From the IMG/VR virus record IMGVR_UViG_3300009172_000011, positions 1-44,631 of that record: a stretch of DNA of 44,631 bases; one strand, given 5' to 3'. Position numbers and translations under genes: made by a program. Source of the stretch: a virus. Of the stretch, positions 5,140 through 19,511 are shown in pieces. A model generated the notes under the pieces. The model made no database searches. It worked only from the letters and a program-made list of their open reading frames with translations, and was not told the DNA's origin. How positions within the stretch are numbered: position 1 is the first letter of the stretch; every line of letters begins with the position of its first letter.

Positions 5140-5194
5140 TATATTAACGTAATATATTTACGATGATATATATAAAAAACAAATTAACTTTAAT
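5138..5194 (+). promoter_or_regulatory. Candidate late promoter/operator, GATATATA element
   Basis: This intergenic stretch precedes the first baseplate gene. It holds GATATATATA at 5165-5174, 30 bases before the ATG, and two copies of the self-complementary octamer AATATATT (5138-5145 and 5151-5158) with AACGT-type spacing. The same GATATATA core lies 32-47 bases before three other gene starts. AT-rich DNA makes chance matches likely, so this is a candidate only. Confidence 0.35.
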
Positions 5195-11992: not shown

Positions 11993-13735
11993 ATGCCTGC
12001 ACTGTGGCCACAATTTATAGCTAACGTAAGTAACAACATCATGGGTCAAGGTTACAAAGACCCTGGTAGTATTCCACCGCGTGATAATATTGATTCTAAA
12101 AATTTAAACTTTCAAACTCCTGTTTATATACCGCTTGTAACGCCAAGCGGAAGAAGGGATTTTGGAGAAATGGTTGCAAACGAATACATAGCCGCTGTTA
12201 AAAGCATGGCAATGACACACGTTGGAGCAGTACATACTAATAACCCAGCAGCTGAACAAATATTAATTAAAGGATACGGCGAGGCTTTTGAAAGATTGTA
12301 CAGACATCATGATTTAGATCTACAAGATACTAAAGACAAGGATGGTAATATTGTTAAAATGGGAAAAGAATCTCACCCAGCATATGCTGATTTTTGTCCC
12401 GATCCAATTGAAGCACCAGATCCAATAGAAGAACAAAAGAAGCAAGATAAAAAATTCGATGCTTTTGTTCATGAAAAGAAATCAGATACTTATTGGGATT
12501 TATATAAGTTTAGATTTTTTCAATTTCCATGTCTTACGGGTGAAGAAACTCAAGATGAATTAGAAAAAATATTTGCATCCAGGTTATTGCAACAATTTGA
12601 AAATATTACAAATAAAAATACTAAATGGGAATTTTATATGTGGGTGGCATGTTTAGGAAGCCAAAATTATAGCAACTCAAGTGGTTTTGGAGGAAATTGG
12701 TCAGGATTGCCTTGGCCCAATATAAATGATAAAGCTAGAAGCGACATATCATCTGCTGGATATAATTGGCAGCACTTAGCCGACAATGTTAGTACCTTAT
12801 GTGTCGACGCTATTCATGAAGTACACCCAGAAGAAGAAGAAAATACATGGAATTTTTTTAATACAACTCACTTAAGGAAAAGAATTCAGAAAGATCCAAC
12901 TGGATCTATCACATTGCCATATGAATTAGATTGCCCGTTAAACCAATGGAAAATTCAGGTAGCGTATGATTTTGAACATGATCCTCCTGAATATCCAAGT
13001 GGCAAACCTAAAATATTAACATCTAATGTAATTGCGATGTTTTCATGGTACCCTGGATTAAAATCTGGTAATTTTAGTGCAAACTCAGAAGGTGTAATTA
13101 CTAATGCGCCTAAATTTACTAAAAGTAAAAATTGGGTAGAAAGTAAATTTGAAAACACAGAGTGGAAAGATAATTGGAGAAAAGTACCTGAAAGTAAATT
13201 GCGACAAGCTGGAAATTCTCAAAACCCACAAGAAAGTCTTTTAGAAATTAATCCAAAATCTGGCGGAACTATTTTTAAATTTCAAATGTGGCAAGCACTA
13301 AAGGAAAAAGAGGCTGCTGATTTATGTGATGAAAAAGAACCTGACGCAGATCTACCATTTTCATTCGCTGAAGGCGATCCTTATTTAGAAATGGGTGCTA
13401 TAACAATTTCATATTGGTATGCTTGTTTAGTAAAACCGTTTGCTCCAACCACATCTGCTCCTCCTGCACTAATACCACCGCCATTAACTGGAATTTATAT
13501 TCCAATATATTATGGTAGTGCAAAAAGATTAGGCAATAATTTAAGAAAGGCATGGAATACTGGTAAATCATTTAGTATATTACCGGCACCACAACCTCCT
13601 GCATTGGCGGTCGCGACAGCAGTTGCCGCATGTTATGCGTTACATTTGTTAGAATTTAAATTACTTTATTTGGGAGGAATTCCAACACCAGTTGGGCCAG
13701 TTCCAATGGTAGGTTTCGTACCTGTCGTGTTCTAA
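11993..13735 (+). CDS. Unknown protein next to the spike gene, hydrophobic C-terminus
   Basis: A 580-aa protein starting 2 bases after the gp5-like stop, so probably co-translated with it. The N-terminal 100 residues are helical (LWPQFIANVSNNIMGQG, YGEAFERLYRHH). The middle is rich in Trp, Asn and aromatic residues. The C-terminus (about 480-580) is Pro-rich and contains a hydrophobic run (about 534-556, LAVATAVAACYALHLLEF) before a Val/Pro/Gly ending. I recognise no family. The position suggests a virion part at the hub or spike, and the hydrophobic end could touch membrane or sit in the tube. Both ideas are inference. Confidence 0.6.
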   Translation: MPALWPQFIANVSNNIMGQGYKDPGSIPPRDNIDSKNLNFQTPVYIPLVTPSGRRDFGEMVANEYIAAVKSMAMTHVGAVHTNNPAAEQILIKGYGEAFERLYRHHDLDLQDTKDKDGNIVKMGKESHPAYADFCPDPIEAPDPIEEQKKQDKKFDAFVHEKKSDTYWDLYKFRFFQFPCLTGEETQDELEKIFASRLLQQFENITNKNTKWEFYMWVACLGSQNYSNSSGFGGNWSGLPWPNINDKARSDISSAGYNWQHLADNVSTLCVDAIHEVHPEEEENTWNFFNTTHLRKRIQKDPTGSITLPYELDCPLNQWKIQVAYDFEHDPPEYPSGKPKILTSNVIAMFSWYPGLKSGNFSANSEGVITNAPKFTKSKNWVESKFENTEWKDNWRKVPESKLRQAGNSQNPQESLLEINPKSGGTIFKFQMWQALKEKEAADLCDEKEPDADLPFSFAEGDPYLEMGAITISYWYACLVKPFAPTTSAPPALIPPPLTGIYIPIYYGSAKRLGNNLRKAWNTGKSFSILPAPQPPALAVATAVAACYALHLLEFKLLYLGGIPTPVGPVPMVGFVPVVF

Positions 13736-13780: not shown

Positions 13781-15067
13781 ATGATTGATAAAAACAAGCG
13801 CAAAAGAATCGGAGATACTGTAATCGATTTAAAAGAAAAAACAACAGTAGAAGAAGTAATCCAAAAGGTAGAAAAGGTAAAAGAAGAGCCGGCCGAAGAT
13901 AACTGGCTAGATGATAACGGGGAATTTATGTGGGAAGCATATGAAGGTACTTGTATTACCAGAAATCGTAAGGTTAATCCACATATCAAAACAAATAACG
14001 GTGATAAAGTATATTCTAGAGAACCATATGCGCAGGCTCTCTATGACAAAATGTATGAACTTGAATCAAATAAAACGTTTATACCTTCTGTCAATAATGG
14101 TGAAATATTAGAAGGTATTATTTATGGAGTTTCTTCAGATTATATTACAGTAGAGGTTGGATATAGACAACTAGTGTATGTTAAATACGAAAAAGAACCT
14201 ATTGAAATACAAGCGTTAAAGCCCGGAGATGAAACCGCAGTTTTAATTACACAAGACGACAGTGGAAGTCTTATTACAGGATCGATTCACGGAGGAGTTA
14301 AACATAAAGTGTTTATGGACCTTAGAGACGGCGTAGAAACAGGAAATACTGCATGGGTTGGAGTTGTTAAAAACATGATAGAAAATGGAGGTTATATTGT
14401 TAACGTTCAAGGCATAGATTGTTTTATGCCAGGTTCACTTGCAGGTATTAATAAATTATCTGATTTTAGTTCAATTATAGAAAAAGAATTATATGTTGTT
14501 CCTGTTAGTTTTTCACCGGAACGAGGTACGTTAGTAGTATCACATAGAAAATATCTACAAGCATTAATACCAAACGCGTTGAATGAAGTTAGGGAAAACA
14601 TGGACGTTGAAAAAACAGGTAAAGTAACAGGTACTGCTAAGTATGGAATATTTGTTGAATTTGATCAGTGTTTAACTGGTATGATTCATAACAATGATTT
14701 AGATTCTGATACATCTGTATTATTTAAGAAACGTGAAATTAAACCAGGTGATTCTATTTCTTTTAAAGTTAAAGATATTGTTAGTGATACTAAAATAACA
14801 TTAACACAAAAAACAAACGTAGAAGTTAGCCCATGGCTTGATATCACTACAAGGTATCAGATTCCTTCGGTTGTTGAAGCTGTTGTAAAGTCTAAAAAAG
14901 ATTACGGTTTATTTATTAACATCGAAGAAGGTATTACTGGATTGTTACATATTAGTGAAATAGGAAGTGACACTATGTCTTTATTTAATAACGGAGATAA
15001 GATCACTGTTCAGATTAACAGGATAGATGTAGACAGCATGAAAGTTTTTCTTAAAATGCCTGAATAA
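13781..15067 (+). CDS. Ribosomal-protein-S1-like RNA-binding protein (four S1 domains)
   Basis: A 428-aa protein. After about 100 residues of charged N-terminal extension (coiled-coil-like at 20-45), four S1/OB RNA-binding repeats follow at about 104-170, 185-265, 275-345 and 355-428. Repeats 3 and 4 are the clearest: GKVTGTAKYGIFVEF with GMIHNNDL, and VVEAVVKSKKDYGLFINIEE with GLLHISEI. Bacterial bS1 usually has up to six such domains and brings mRNA to the 30S subunit. This protein could bind phage mRNA or host ribosomes, or a phage RNA polymerase complex. It lies alone between candidate regulatory gaps inside the structural cluster, so it is probably expressed late. The S1 fold is sure; the role is inferred. 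Confidence 0.8.
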   Translation: MIDKNKRKRIGDTVIDLKEKTTVEEVIQKVEKVKEEPAEDNWLDDNGEFMWEAYEGTCITRNRKVNPHIKTNNGDKVYSREPYAQALYDKMYELESNKTFIPSVNNGEILEGIIYGVSSDYITVEVGYRQLVYVKYEKEPIEIQALKPGDETAVLITQDDSGSLITGSIHGGVKHKVFMDLRDGVETGNTAWVGVVKNMIENGGYIVNVQGIDCFMPGSLAGINKLSDFSSIIEKELYVVPVSFSPERGTLVVSHRKYLQALIPNALNEVRENMDVEKTGKVTGTAKYGIFVEFDQCLTGMIHNNDLDSDTSVLFKKREIKPGDSISFKVKDIVSDTKITLTQKTNVEVSPWLDITTRYQIPSVVEAVVKSKKDYGLFINIEEGITGLLHISEIGSDTMSLFNNGDKITVQINRIDVDSMKVFLKMPE

Positions 15068-15079
15068 CTATTGCAAATT

Positions 15080-15113
15080 GAGTGTGATATATATTCAAAG
15101 TAATATCATACTC
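15080..15113 (+). promoter_or_regulatory. Inverted repeat over a GATATATA element before the amidoligase gene
   Basis: GAGTGTGATAT (15080-15090) pairs with ATATCATACTC (15103-15113): 11 bp with one G-U pair and a 12-base loop. The left arm contains the GATATATAT element (15086-15094), and the repeat ends 4 bases before the ATG at 15118. It could be a DNA operator or an RNA hairpin that controls access to the start codon. No T-run follows, so it is not a terminator. Confidence 0.5.
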
Positions 15114-15117
15114 TAAG

Positions 15118-16428
15118 ATGCAAAAACTAAACATAAAATCTGACAGAACTCAAATACTAAACTCTTCCTTAATAGGATTAGAGTTTGAATTTTACTCAGA
15201 AAGTTCTGTTGAAGAAACACAAAAGTCATTAAGTCAATTGCTTGGTAAAAAAATCAGAGTGGAAGATAAAGCCCACTCTGATTTTCAACCGACAACTGAC
15301 GAGTTTAAATTAGAACCTGACATGTCAGGTGGTAAAGGTCTAGTAGAATTAGTAACTGGTGCAACGCCATACAGAAACGCTAGAATCATTATTATCAAAG
15401 TCTTAAAGTGGATCAGAGAAAATGGCTACACTACAGACAGAGCATCCATACATATAAACCTATCGTTCGATCCTAAGTTTTTAGAAGATAAGCTTATGGT
15501 TTCTAAAATGAATGTACTTAAATTTATTTTAGAATTTGATGAAGATCAAGTATATAGGTTTTTCCCAGACAGAAAAGACTCAACATATGCTAAATCCATA
15601 AAATGGATCATGCCAAGAGAAGAATCGTATTATTATGATGAATCACACACCAGCTCTAACAATTTTAAATTTGCAGATACTAAATACTATGGTATTAATT
15701 TTTCTAAGAAAGAAAAGAATTATTTAGAATTTAGATATATCGGTGGAAAGGATTATGAAAATAGACAGGATGATATTTTATATTTAACGGAAAGATTTAT
15801 ATCTCAAATCTGGAAATCATGTAATGATCCTAGATTTTCTATAGATAATAAACTAGAACTAAAAAAGATCCTTAATAAAAATAAGCCTTTAATAGATATG
15901 TTAAAGGACTATACGTACTTAAACAAGAATTGGCCTAAAATACACCTCATGGTGGATTTACAAGAATCATCTCAATTAATTAGATTACATTGGCCTAGAA
16001 TTAAAAATCAAGTATTAAAATTGATTTCTGATGGAACAATGGAAGCTGGTATTATTAACTATGATTCTGATAATTCTTCACTTCAAGTAAAAGATGGAGT
16101 TTTTAAAACAGCATATTTATTAGAAAACTTAGAGTTGGTTTCTTGTAAAATTAATGGAAACGTAGAAAATTGTATATTATATGACTGTGAATTAGATGGT
16201 TCTCAATTATCACAATGTTCTCTGTATCAGGGTACTAAGGCTAAGGATTCTAAAGTAGAATCTTGTTTTACACATGGAAGTGTTACACTCACCAACTGTT
16301 ATGTTGCAGGTCGTGATAGTATGTTTAAGGGTAAAATGATTGGTGGGATATTTAGAGAAGGTTTTATGAGCGATGATGCTAGATTCGAAGACACTGAAAT
16401 TGTAGTAAGTAAAAAAATAAAAATATAA
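15118..16428 (+). CDS. Amidoligase-like protein with C-terminal beta-helix repeat
   Basis: A 436-aa protein in two parts. Residues about 15-235 show the pattern of COOH-NH2 amidoligases (Amidoligase_2 group): GLEFEF at 20-25, ELVTG at 77-81, a HINLSFD motif at 112-118, and INFSKKEKNYLEFRYIGG at 193-210. Such enzymes form amide or peptide-like bonds with ATP, and family members are known from phages and from peptide-modifying operons. Residues about 331-432 are short repeated strands with regular Cys, Asn and Asp turns (SCKINGNVENCILYDCELDG), like pentapeptide or left-handed beta-helix repeats. The gene sits between S1-like and neck genes and ends 1 base before the next ATG. The substrate is unknown; the amidoligase call is from motif reading alone. 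Confidence 0.6.
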   Translation: MQKLNIKSDRTQILNSSLIGLEFEFYSESSVEETQKSLSQLLGKKIRVEDKAHSDFQPTTDEFKLEPDMSGGKGLVELVTGATPYRNARIIIIKVLKWIRENGYTTDRASIHINLSFDPKFLEDKLMVSKMNVLKFILEFDEDQVYRFFPDRKDSTYAKSIKWIMPREESYYYDESHTSSNNFKFADTKYYGINFSKKEKNYLEFRYIGGKDYENRQDDILYLTERFISQIWKSCNDPRFSIDNKLELKKILNKNKPLIDMLKDYTYLNKNWPKIHLMVDLQESSQLIRLHWPRIKNQVLKLISDGTMEAGIINYDSDNSSLQVKDGVFKTAYLLENLELVSCKINGNVENCILYDCELDGSQLSQCSLYQGTKAKDSKVESCFTHGSVTLTNCYVAGRDSMFKGKMIGGIFREGFMSDDARFEDTEIVVSKKIKI

Positions 16429-16429
16429 A

Positions 16430-17278
16430 ATGAGTGAAATTAGAAGTGGTAACTCCGGTGGTTTAAACACACCAAGGCCAAAGAATTTTGATGAGAATTG
16501 TTTAAACGCATTTTTAGATGAAATAGGTGATGATATGACCGGAGCTTGTATGGTTCCCATTAATTTACCTAAGAAAGAAATTAAAAATATCATCAAAAGA
16601 GCTAAAAAATGGTTCTATAAAAAATACGAATATTCTGTAAAAGAAAATTATTATCATATACCTAGGAGTGTTTTTGACACTTCATATTTTAAATCTACTA
16701 GAACATTGACTTTACCTGATGCAGCAGCAGATGGTAGTGGAATGGTATATTCTGTATATGGATTATATGATCTTCAGTCTGGTTGGAATGGAACCGGTAA
16801 CGGATTAGATGTGAGATTCCAAAGTGGAGGTGATTTTGCAGTAGAGAAAATGTTATTTAGAGGTATGTATGAAGGTAGTGGAATGGCTGAAGCTGCAGAA
16901 GAATTACAATATTATGTTTTAAACGCTTCAATGGCAGACATGTCTAGACAAATTCTAGATAATCCTATTTCTTTTCACTATTCTCAATTAACTGGAGATT
17001 TAAAAATAATGGGTGATACACCTAAGGGTGATGTTATATTAGAAGTGTATGAGACTATACCAGATTGTGCCCTTTACAGCGATGAAATATTCTTTAGATA
17101 TGTTAGTGCTAAGATAAAACAATCGTTAGGATCTAAGCTAGCTATCTTTAAGTTTGCGTTACCTGGTAATGTAGATTTTGATTACGATGCTATAAAATCA
17201 ATGGGAGATGATGAGCTTTCTGAAATAATAGAAGAAATCAACGGCGATGAAGGTGTCGATTGGATGATGCACTCTTAA
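16430..17278 (+). CDS. Neck protein, T4 gp13-like
   Basis: A 282-aa protein. An N-terminal helix with KEIKNIIKRAKKWFYKKYEY and YYHIP, a middle VYGLYDLQ segment and a strand pair before ILEVYETIPD lead to FFRYVSAKIKQSLGSKLAIF, then ALPGNVDFD and a final acidic helix. This order matches the T4 gp13 / cyanophage neck family, whose members end with a WVKDYATAL-type helix, an LPGGV motif and an acidic helix. Here LPGGV is changed to LPGNV. gp13 helps join the filled head to the tail. It starts 1 base after the amidoligase-like stop, and the gp25 gene follows in 21 bases. Confidence 0.6.
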   Translation: MSEIRSGNSGGLNTPRPKNFDENCLNAFLDEIGDDMTGACMVPINLPKKEIKNIIKRAKKWFYKKYEYSVKENYYHIPRSVFDTSYFKSTRTLTLPDAAADGSGMVYSVYGLYDLQSGWNGTGNGLDVRFQSGGDFAVEKMLFRGMYEGSGMAEAAEELQYYVLNASMADMSRQILDNPISFHYSQLTGDLKIMGDTPKGDVILEVYETIPDCALYSDEIFFRYVSAKIKQSLGSKLAIFKFALPGNVDFDYDAIKSMGDDELSEIIEEINGDEGVDWMMHS

Positions 17279-17678: not shown

Positions 17679-19511
17679 ATGGCAGAATTAAAAATTTTAA
17701 AAACACTTAGAGTAAATGCAGCCCAAATAAGGGAAGATGCTAGAACATATATTACTAGAGTGTATGGTCGATCTAAGACTTTATTTACAGAGGCTTCCCC
17801 GTTTGCACAGATAATAAAAGTGTTGACTGAGATTACTGAACTTATTATGTTTTATATAGAAGATGCAACGGTTGAACAAAACATATATACCGCACAACAG
17901 CCAGAATCTATATATGGTTTAGCAAGATTAACAGGACATGATGCAACTAGAGGATTTGCAGCTGTAGGTGAACTTGAATTTAGATGGAAACCAGGCGCAG
18001 ATCTTAGTAAAATTGCAGGAACAGGTGTTAACATAGACCCTCGTGCTGAATTTAAAATAGACTTAAATGGTCTTAAATACAGTTGTTTAAATTCTAACGA
18101 TAGATTTAGATTAGAAAAGGCCAATAAGTTTCCTATTAAAACCGCGTTTATTCAGGGTGAATTTGAAAAACAAACTGTGACTGGAACTGGAGAGAATTTA
18201 CAATCTTTTAATGTTAAAACTGGTGGAATAACTGATCATTCTAATGTCAGCGTTTCCGTTAACGGTGAAAAATGGACTAAACATGAATCATTGTATGATT
18301 TATTATCAGACGAAAAAGGATATTTACTTAAAACCGGAATAGGTGGCGGAATAGATGTTTATTTTGGTAATTCTTCATTTGGAGCAGTACCTGCACTAGG
18401 CACAACGGTCGAAGTAGAATATGTCAAACACGAAGGATTAACTGGGAATATAGATGATTCTCCAGATCTTACTATTAAGTGGGATGCCTCTGGTGCAGAT
18501 TCTAATGGAACAGAACATGATCTAAACGAGTTTTTAGATGTAACTATTACGTCTGCCCCTAAAATGGGATCAGATGCTGAAAGCACAGAGTTTACTAAAG
18601 TAATGACGCCTCTTGCCAGTAAATCATTTGTATTAGCTACTCCAGATAATTATGAGTATTTTTTATCGAGGTATAATATGTTTTCTTATGTAGATGCATA
18701 TAACACAACTGACGATCAATATTTAGATGACGATAATGTTATTTATATTTTTGCTGTACCTGATGTGAAAAAGAAATTAGCTAAAAATAAAGATTATTTT
18801 TCAATGGCTGAGGAAGAAATGTTTTTAGATCAAACTGAATATGATGCTATTCAAAAGGTATTACAGGATAGCGGTCAACAAATGGTAACTACTGAAGTTG
18901 TATTTGTCAAGCCTCAGGTTAGAAAATATAGCATGGATATTAATATTAGATATTTTGAAGGTTTTACTAGACAGGAAATATACACAAACGTTAGAGAAAA
19001 AGTTAGTAACTATTTATTAAACGTAACTCGTAGGGATAAATTACCCAAATCTGATATTGTGTATATCTTAGAAGAAATAGAAGGAATTGATGCAGTGAAC
19101 ATTAGATTTATATCTGAAACAGAGGAAACAGCCAGAAGATTGGGTTATTATGAATCTGTAAATGTTTCTGTCGTTCCACAAGAACCAGTTACATTAGAGA
19201 ATGTACAAAATGGAAAACAAAAATATGTATTCTTTAAAAGAGTAGAAGATGTTAAAATAATAGACGTTGATGAAACTACTGAAATACCTGAAGATATCGT
19301 AGGATTAGACAGGTGGGGAGATATTATCATGGATAAAGAAGAAGTTGCAGTTTTTAGAGGAGGTTGGCAAGATAGAGATGGCGATGAAATAGTTGATGAT
19401 GTATTAATTAACGCGGAAGCGGCAATAAGCATAAACTTTGAAGGAGCACCGGTACCTAGAACAATGTATACAAGAGTTCAGGCGGGAAATAGAAGAGCAG
19501 TTAAAAAATAA
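17679..19511 (+). CDS. gp6: Baseplate wedge protein gp6 (baseplate J-like)
   Basis: A 610-aa protein, close to T4 gp6 (660 aa). The N-terminal helices (ASPFAQIIKVLTEITELIMF, EDATVEQNIYTAQQPESIYG) are the baseplate-J pattern, followed by beta-rich inserts. The C-terminal third has the typical QEIYTNVREKVSNYLLN helix, LPKSDIVYILEEIEGID, and then GDIIMDKEEVAVFRGGWQDR, which resembles the GGW-DR ending of T4-like gp6. gp6 dimers make the inner ring of the baseplate. It is coupled to the next gene by TAATG. Confidence 0.88.
   Translation: MAELKILKTLRVNAAQIREDARTYITRVYGRSKTLFTEASPFAQIIKVLTEITELIMFYIEDATVEQNIYTAQQPESIYGLARLTGHDATRGFAAVGELEFRWKPGADLSKIAGTGVNIDPRAEFKIDLNGLKYSCLNSNDRFRLEKANKFPIKTAFIQGEFEKQTVTGTGENLQSFNVKTGGITDHSNVSVSVNGEKWTKHESLYDLLSDEKGYLLKTGIGGGIDVYFGNSSFGAVPALGTTVEVEYVKHEGLTGNIDDSPDLTIKWDASGADSNGTEHDLNEFLDVTITSAPKMGSDAESTEFTKVMTPLASKSFVLATPDNYEYFLSRYNMFSYVDAYNTTDDQYLDDDNVIYIFAVPDVKKKLAKNKDYFSMAEEEMFLDQTEYDAIQKVLQDSGQQMVTTEVVFVKPQVRKYSMDINIRYFEGFTRQEIYTNVREKVSNYLLNVTRRDKLPKSDIVYILEEIEGIDAVNIRFISETEETARRLGYYESVNVSVVPQEPVTLENVQNGKQKYVFFKRVEDVKIIDVDETTEIPEDIVGLDRWGDIIMDKEEVAVFRGGWQDRDGDEIVDDVLINAEAAISINFEGAPVPRTMYTRVQAGNRRAVKK

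Follow-up and report, generated by a model that had tools for sequence, protein, structure and literature searches.

We identified an amidoligase-like gene, fused to a beta-helix domain and located among structural genes, that is a core gene of a widespread marine huge-phage group. The gene was found in a 44.6-kb virus record (the window, by which we mean the whole 44,631-nucleotide stretch that was analysed). We propose that its product is an active member of the glutamine-synthetase superfamily, a stand-alone carboxylate-amine ligase that uses ATP, would be produced late, would receive its substrate with the help of its own beta-helix, and would most likely serve the covalent, amide-bond tailoring of a phage (or host) protein while virions are produced. 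We give this statement as a whole a probability of roughly 0.45. The family, the fold, the intact active site, the core status, the structural setting and the lack of a GATase_6 partner, taken alone, are highly secure. The locus contains the following genes.

13781 to 15067, + strand: ribosomal-protein-S1-like gene (NCBIfam 30S ribosomal protein S1 match, E 1e-45)
15118 to 16428, + strand: gene for the amidoligase, helical linker and beta-helix (436-amino acid ORF, ATG to stop; a family under purifying selection)
16430 to 17278, + strand: neck or head-tail adaptor gene (PHROG 211, E 3e-10), the constant 3' neighbour
17679 to 19511, + strand: baseplate wedge gene gpJ, the independent anchor for the test of amidoligase presence

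The S1-like and neck genes had been named as flanks in a preliminary description of this DNA, and both bear the profile matches listed above. The amidoligase gene is separated from them by gaps of 50 and 1 nucleotides, respectively, and in most loci it likewise lies about 50 nucleotides past S1 and a few nucleotides ahead of the neck gene. After the neck gene, the window carries gp25-like and then gpJ-like baseplate genes. The window is presumably a piece of a bigger phage, because its relatives sit on far longer contigs. A 580-amino acid gene of unknown family (window 11993-13735), located between gpV and S1, is kept by some relatives and was undetected there in others.

The best Pfam match of the window protein is Amidoligase_2 (PF12224; E 3e-4), with a score of 21.2 bits that is just below the 22-bit cut-off of this family. 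Seven of 18 family members match Amidoligase_2 independently (best E 2.5e-6), and the relative from Agrobacterium phage Atu_ph07 (gp196) exceeds the cut-off with 30.2 bits. When a profile of 50 catalytic domains was compared by hhalign with nine annotated phage amidoligases, the two aligned across 193 columns (E 1.7e-7), and D68, E77, H112, R152, N194, E204 and R206 were paired with counterparts in the annotated enzymes. The AlphaFold2 model has a pLDDT of 87.9 for the full protein and 92.9 for residues 1-304. Foldseek searches of the PDB with the catalytic-domain model ranked only glutamine synthetases, homologues of these, and gamma-glutamylcysteine/glutathione synthetase at the top (best E 2.6e-5, prob 1.00). 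The fold is shared with glutamine synthetase (PDB 8fbp among others), GshF/GCS and GlnA homologues at about 10% identity, and the relation is a distant one, since the TM-score is only about 0.4. Among viral models, the top named matches are annotated as amidoligases, apart from one uncharacterised close match. A PDB sequence search with the single window protein returned only noise, one with the catalytic-domain profile gave no match, and a scan of GTDB species genomes with strict patterns revealed no bacterial relatives. The preliminary description had inferred an amidoligase from the motifs GLEFEF, HINLSFD and NYLEFRYIGG, all three of which are present in the ORF, and had suggested a fold search and an Amidoligase_2 HMM search as checks; both point the same way, and the predicted fold is glutamine-synthetase-like rather than unrelated. 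By profile comparison and modelled structure, residues 1-236 are thus a divergent Amidoligase_2 domain, with the following elements.

15118 to 15825, + strand: Amidoligase_2, glutamine-synthetase-like COOH-NH2 ligase domain, residues 1-236 (Pfam, hhalign, AlphaFold2 with Foldseek)
15175 to 15189, + strand: GxExE motif (G20, E22, E24), first strand of the metal/ATP site (151/151)
15313 to 15333, + strand: EPDxSGG, counterpart of the classical D(G/S)S, aligned by hhalign (D68, S70 and G72 151/151; E66 147/151)
15346 to 15348, + strand: E77 of ELVTG, counterpart of ELVSP (151/151)
15451 to 15459, + strand: H112-x-N114, HxN replacing the classical HxH (151/151)
15682 to 15699, + strand: KYYGIN (K189, Y190, G192, N194) (151/151)
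15727 to 15735, + strand: E204-x-R206 (EFR), counterpart of the catalytic ExR, aligned by hhalign (151/151)

Conservation was assessed in 151 distinct homologues, down to about 30% identity. The signature ExE, DxS, E, HxN, R, KYxGxN, ExR is near-invariant in this sample. G20, E22, E24, D68, S70, G72, E77, T80 and H112 are invariant, as are N114, K189, Y190, G192, N194, E204, R206, Y207 and G209. The one departure from the classical pattern is HxN, present in all 151 proteins, whereas all nine annotated phage amidoligase references carry HxH. HxN also occurs in Atu_ph07 gp196, and HxS is found in both copies of Salicola phage SCTP-2. Because gp196 has HxN yet passes the Pfam cut-off, HxH is not defining for Amidoligase_2, and from these alignments we read the HxN family as a distinct branch rather than as decayed or excluded from Amidoligase_2. 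The replacement of the second classical histidine by asparagine means that enzymatic activity is not certain. Together with the position of the gene among neck and baseplate genes, this replacement would fit a structural role for a dead glutamine-synthetase-like fold that touches the virion through its beta-helix. However, retention of the other signature residues across 151 proteins is unexpected for a dead enzyme, and we consider this explanation quite improbable. A loss of ATP- and carboxylate-binding residues in relatives, which the preliminary description had raised as an objection to its own proposal, was not seen; the catalytic residues are kept in all relatives examined.

Members of the glutamine-synthetase superfamily form acyl-phosphates in an ATP-dependent manner and make amide bonds. 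The enzyme described here would similarly activate a carboxylate as an acyl-phosphate and then couple it to an amine, which would probably be a free or peptide amine and not ammonia derived from an amidotransferase.

The remainder of the protein consists of two predicted parts.

15826 to 16029, + strand: helical linker, residues 237-304 (AlphaFold2 secondary structure)
16030 to 16425, + strand: pentapeptide-type right-handed beta-helix, residues 305-436, with invariant N314 and R413 (AlphaFold2, profiles, Foldseek)

The beta-helix itself is about 85 residues long. In the model of residues 305-436, short strands recur every five residues (353, 358, 363) and are followed by longer coils, and the autocorrelation of C-terminal hydrophobicity has peaks at lag 5 (z 2.8) and lag 16 (z 3.0). 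Six of 18 members match Pentapeptide_4 in Pfam (best 5.6e-6), the full-length family profile matches pentapeptide proteins in the PDB, and Foldseek finds AlbG for this part of the model. The fusion to a beta-helix noted in the preliminary description is therefore borne out by modelled strands, PDB matches and periodicity of five and 16 residues, which agree. That description also suggested that the helix could hold the enzyme on a fibre or the baseplate, and such a passive-anchor view is weakened by the presence of invariant residues within the domain and by purifying selection about as strong as on the catalytic domain. Among the 151 homologues, N314 and R413 never vary, and K379 and G347 hardly do; the helix domain may therefore do more than anchor the enzyme. 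Most likely it would help to bring the substrate, a peptide or a protein, to the catalytic barrel. Counting against our overall proposal, the relatives in Atu_ph07 and SCTP-2 have no helix. The right-handed beta-helix is shared with the pentapeptide proteins AlbG, Qnr and MfpA, and from this structural likeness the domain could be thought a DNA mimic or a defence-interaction module, with the ligase domain secondary. This we find very improbable: the likeness is generic to every pentapeptide fold, the helix has only about four short coils, and the best-conserved part of the protein is the catalytic domain. In addition, the helix differs from those proteins in its length of only about 85 residues, its partly 16-residue coils and its fusion to an enzyme.

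A profile scan of IMG/VR revealed at least 547 relatives. The dN/dS ratio is about 0.07 in the catalytic domain, compared with 0.10 in the linker and 0.08 in the helix domain; with more than 500 relatives and a ratio of about 0.07, the ORF is not a chance one. To avoid circularity, loci were fetched through the baseplate gene gpJ. The amidoligase gene is present in all 71 of these loci that have room upstream, intact in 70 and with apparent frameshifts in one. This only disrupted copy (locus L224, 5445-6743) was considered as a case of decay and rejected, its parts lying in different frames perhaps through assembly errors. Distances between loci for the amidoligase correlate with those for gpJ (0.95), neck (0.94) and S1 (0.94), as expected for a vertically inherited core gene.

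In the marine clade, an S1 homologue directly precedes the amidoligase gene in 63 of 63 loci with room. This linkage, and the correlation of S1 distances, would be consistent with a ligase that modifies the translation machinery, acting on the ribosome or on the S1-like protein encoded next to it; RimK, which acts on S6, provides a functional parallel. However, the gpJ and neck correlations are equally high, and the linkage does not extend to the other carriers. S1 is encoded far from the amidoligase gene in the megaphages above 630 kb and in three of five long megaphage-type contigs; it was not found in the other two contigs, and Atu_ph07 and SCTP-2 have the enzyme and no S1 match. We therefore rejected S1 as an obligate partner in general, its gene being unlinked in megaphages, and regard modification of the translation machinery as improbable.

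The gene is also present in LR756501 (735 kb), LR756502, LR756504, LR745206 and LR756500; these huge-phage carriers measure 735, 642, 636, 635 and 462 kb. Al-Shayeb et al. assign genomes larger than 634 kb to the Mahaphages, for which Bacteroidetes are the predicted hosts (PMC7162821), and judging by their matching lengths, LR756501, LR756502, LR756504 and LR745206 are probably among these genomes. Gene order is scrambled in the 460-735-kb phages, and in 48 megaphage-type loci the amidoligase gene is often a separate unit that adjoins the structural genes and is divergent from them. The placement within a tail gene cluster given in the preliminary description is thus strict in the marine clade and only loose in megaphages, and because the megaphage gene is not locked to a structural operon, the link to the virion is weakened. 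Several further observations were made in these genomes. Weak second amidoligase-like ORFs occur in LR756502 (208759-208974) and LR756501 (380852-381298). About half of the megaphage loci have, one to three genes past the amidoligase gene, a gene that weakly matches DHH-phosphoesterase and winged-helix families (L037, 9688-11679), and another megaphage gene (L036, 1793-3064) encodes a NusA homologue with NusA_N and KH domains.

The intergenic region upstream of the amidoligase gene contains a further element.

15080 to 15113, + strand: inverted repeat that contains the promoter-like box GATATATA (15086-15093), downstream of the S1 stop and upstream of the amidoligase ATG

The box conforms to RATATATA. 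The + strand of the window carries ten copies, six of them within the 567 nucleotides of intergenic DNA, a figure inflated by the AT-rich intergenic sequence. Counted simply over the full length of the window, the box is no more frequent than expected by chance. The intergenic + strand copies, at 5165, 9848, 13746, 15086, 28837 and 43601, precede groups of structural genes. Among relatives, the box is present in 84 of 88 distinct marine upstream regions (3.9 in dinucleotide shuffles) and upstream of the megaphage gene in 17 of 40 (2.8 in shuffles), support that kinship overstates in both cases. An RNA hairpin before the start codon was considered and rejected. The inverted repeat is real in the near clade and carries no compensatory changes; in view of this lack of covariation, a DNA element is likelier. 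RATATATA may be a promoter element in this group of phages, and its position and its sharing with structural gene groups suggest that it could act late. From the same position and shared box, the amidoligase would be expressed late together with virion genes.

Phage amidoligases have been known in other settings. A GATase, ATP-grasp or second ligase gene adjoins the amidoligase gene in LUZ24, O4, LAh_9, Bas91, Laroye, Vibrio 1.293.O and ctwe8250, mostly in early or replication regions. The amidoligase of phage UFV-P2 is likewise partnered (PMC3890496), and a cyclotransferase gene is found near the amidoligase gene in Christensenellales and Bacillus phages. Compared with PF12224 phage members such as LUZ24 gp18 and those of Pseudomonas O4, Aeromonas LAh_9 and Arthrobacter Laroye, the window family has the same domain order and the common motifs GxExE, DxS, ELV(S/T), H, R, N and ExR. 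It differs in HxN, in the C-terminal beta-helix, and in its location among structural genes with no GATase, ATP-grasp or second-ligase neighbours. The preliminary description had remarked on the absence of partners, and we found no adjacent amidotransferase, ATP-grasp or small-peptide gene, nor any GATase-II or ATP-grasp partner gene within the window. A GATase partner elsewhere in the genome was also rejected, as GATase_6 (class-II amidotransferase) is absent from all 12 huge-phage records and present in 14 of 14 control genomes. Gamma-glutamyl cyclotransferase was rejected as a partner as well; it occurs in only four of the 12 records, distant from the amidoligase gene.

These comparisons bear on the leading alternative, in which the targets of the ligase are peptides of the host envelope or peptidoglycan, or its product is a small peptide-like metabolite, with a block of superinfection as one conceivable purpose. 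For the amidoligases of phiEco32-type phages, a role of this kind has been put forward (Iyer 2009, cited in PMC10580990), and the hhalign result places the window family in the same superfamily. However, the well-annotated phage amidoligases that we inspected, such as those in islands of phiEco32/LUZ24 type, are mostly early or replication-associated, and the genes beside them encode GATase-II, ATP-grasp, another COOH-NH2 ligase or gamma-glutamyl cyclotransferase, whereas the window family lies in a neck and baseplate array, without GATase_6 and with the few cyclotransferases far away. We judge a wall or metabolite role possible, at well below even odds.

The window family is not alone in its structural setting: in Porphyromonas phage018a_AFR5B1 (L199, 9923-10876), the amidoligase gene is likewise located between an adaptor and a neck gene, and the region shown contains no partner enzyme. 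Unlike the window family, this enzyme has no beta-helix and a classical HxH, and it belongs to phages of about 48 kb with unrelated genes before the neck gene. The nearest relatives that we found in isolated phages are Atu_ph07 gp196 and SCTP-2 gp125 and gp124, which in contrast to the window family lack the beta-helix and have long N-terminal insertions. The two SCTP-2 genes (L039, 13924-15744 and 15741-17684) are tandem, diverged copies. The gp196 gene lies near the portal gene, within the CDS 170-215 range, which is rich in virion proteins according to a mass spectrometry study (PMC6102473); gp196 is not named in the main text of that study.

Packaging of the enzyme inside the head was rejected, as it lacks the T4-like N-terminal leader carried by products of neighbouring megaphage genes. 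In these relatives (L035, L037, L040, L119-L155), many unrelated small proteins share an N-terminal leader, for example MKYLKxFE or MIKKYNxFINEE, which is found in 34 of 757 ORFs compared to 2.2 in shuffles. We take this leader to resemble the targeting leader of T4 internal proteins, an analogy which suggests that many of the small proteins may be packaged in the head.

Our proposal of amide-bond tailoring during virion production has one further point against it, in that no co-segregating substrate gene was found. A more specific form of it is a late-stage protein ligase of huge phages that, with its own beta-helix as guide, would form an amide or isopeptide bond between a virion protein, for example of the neck or the baseplate, and an amino acid, a peptide or a polyamine. 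In that detail the proposal is doubtful; modification of the virion in general is plausible. In the open-licence literature, we found no description of a partner-free, beta-helix-fused core amidoligase of huge phages, and the literature searched offers no substrate for any phage amidoligase, although the enzymes are widely annotated.

If virion modification is correct, the enzyme would carry out a covalent step of tail or neck maturation that has not been described so far, and in function would resemble PafA-type protein ligation more closely than the synthesis of a metabolite. The gene is conserved and fixed in a widespread marine huge-phage group and is carried by some of the largest known phages. 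As a partner-free enzyme encoded among structural genes, it narrows the range of substrates to be considered and may provide a simple system for learning what amidoligases join.
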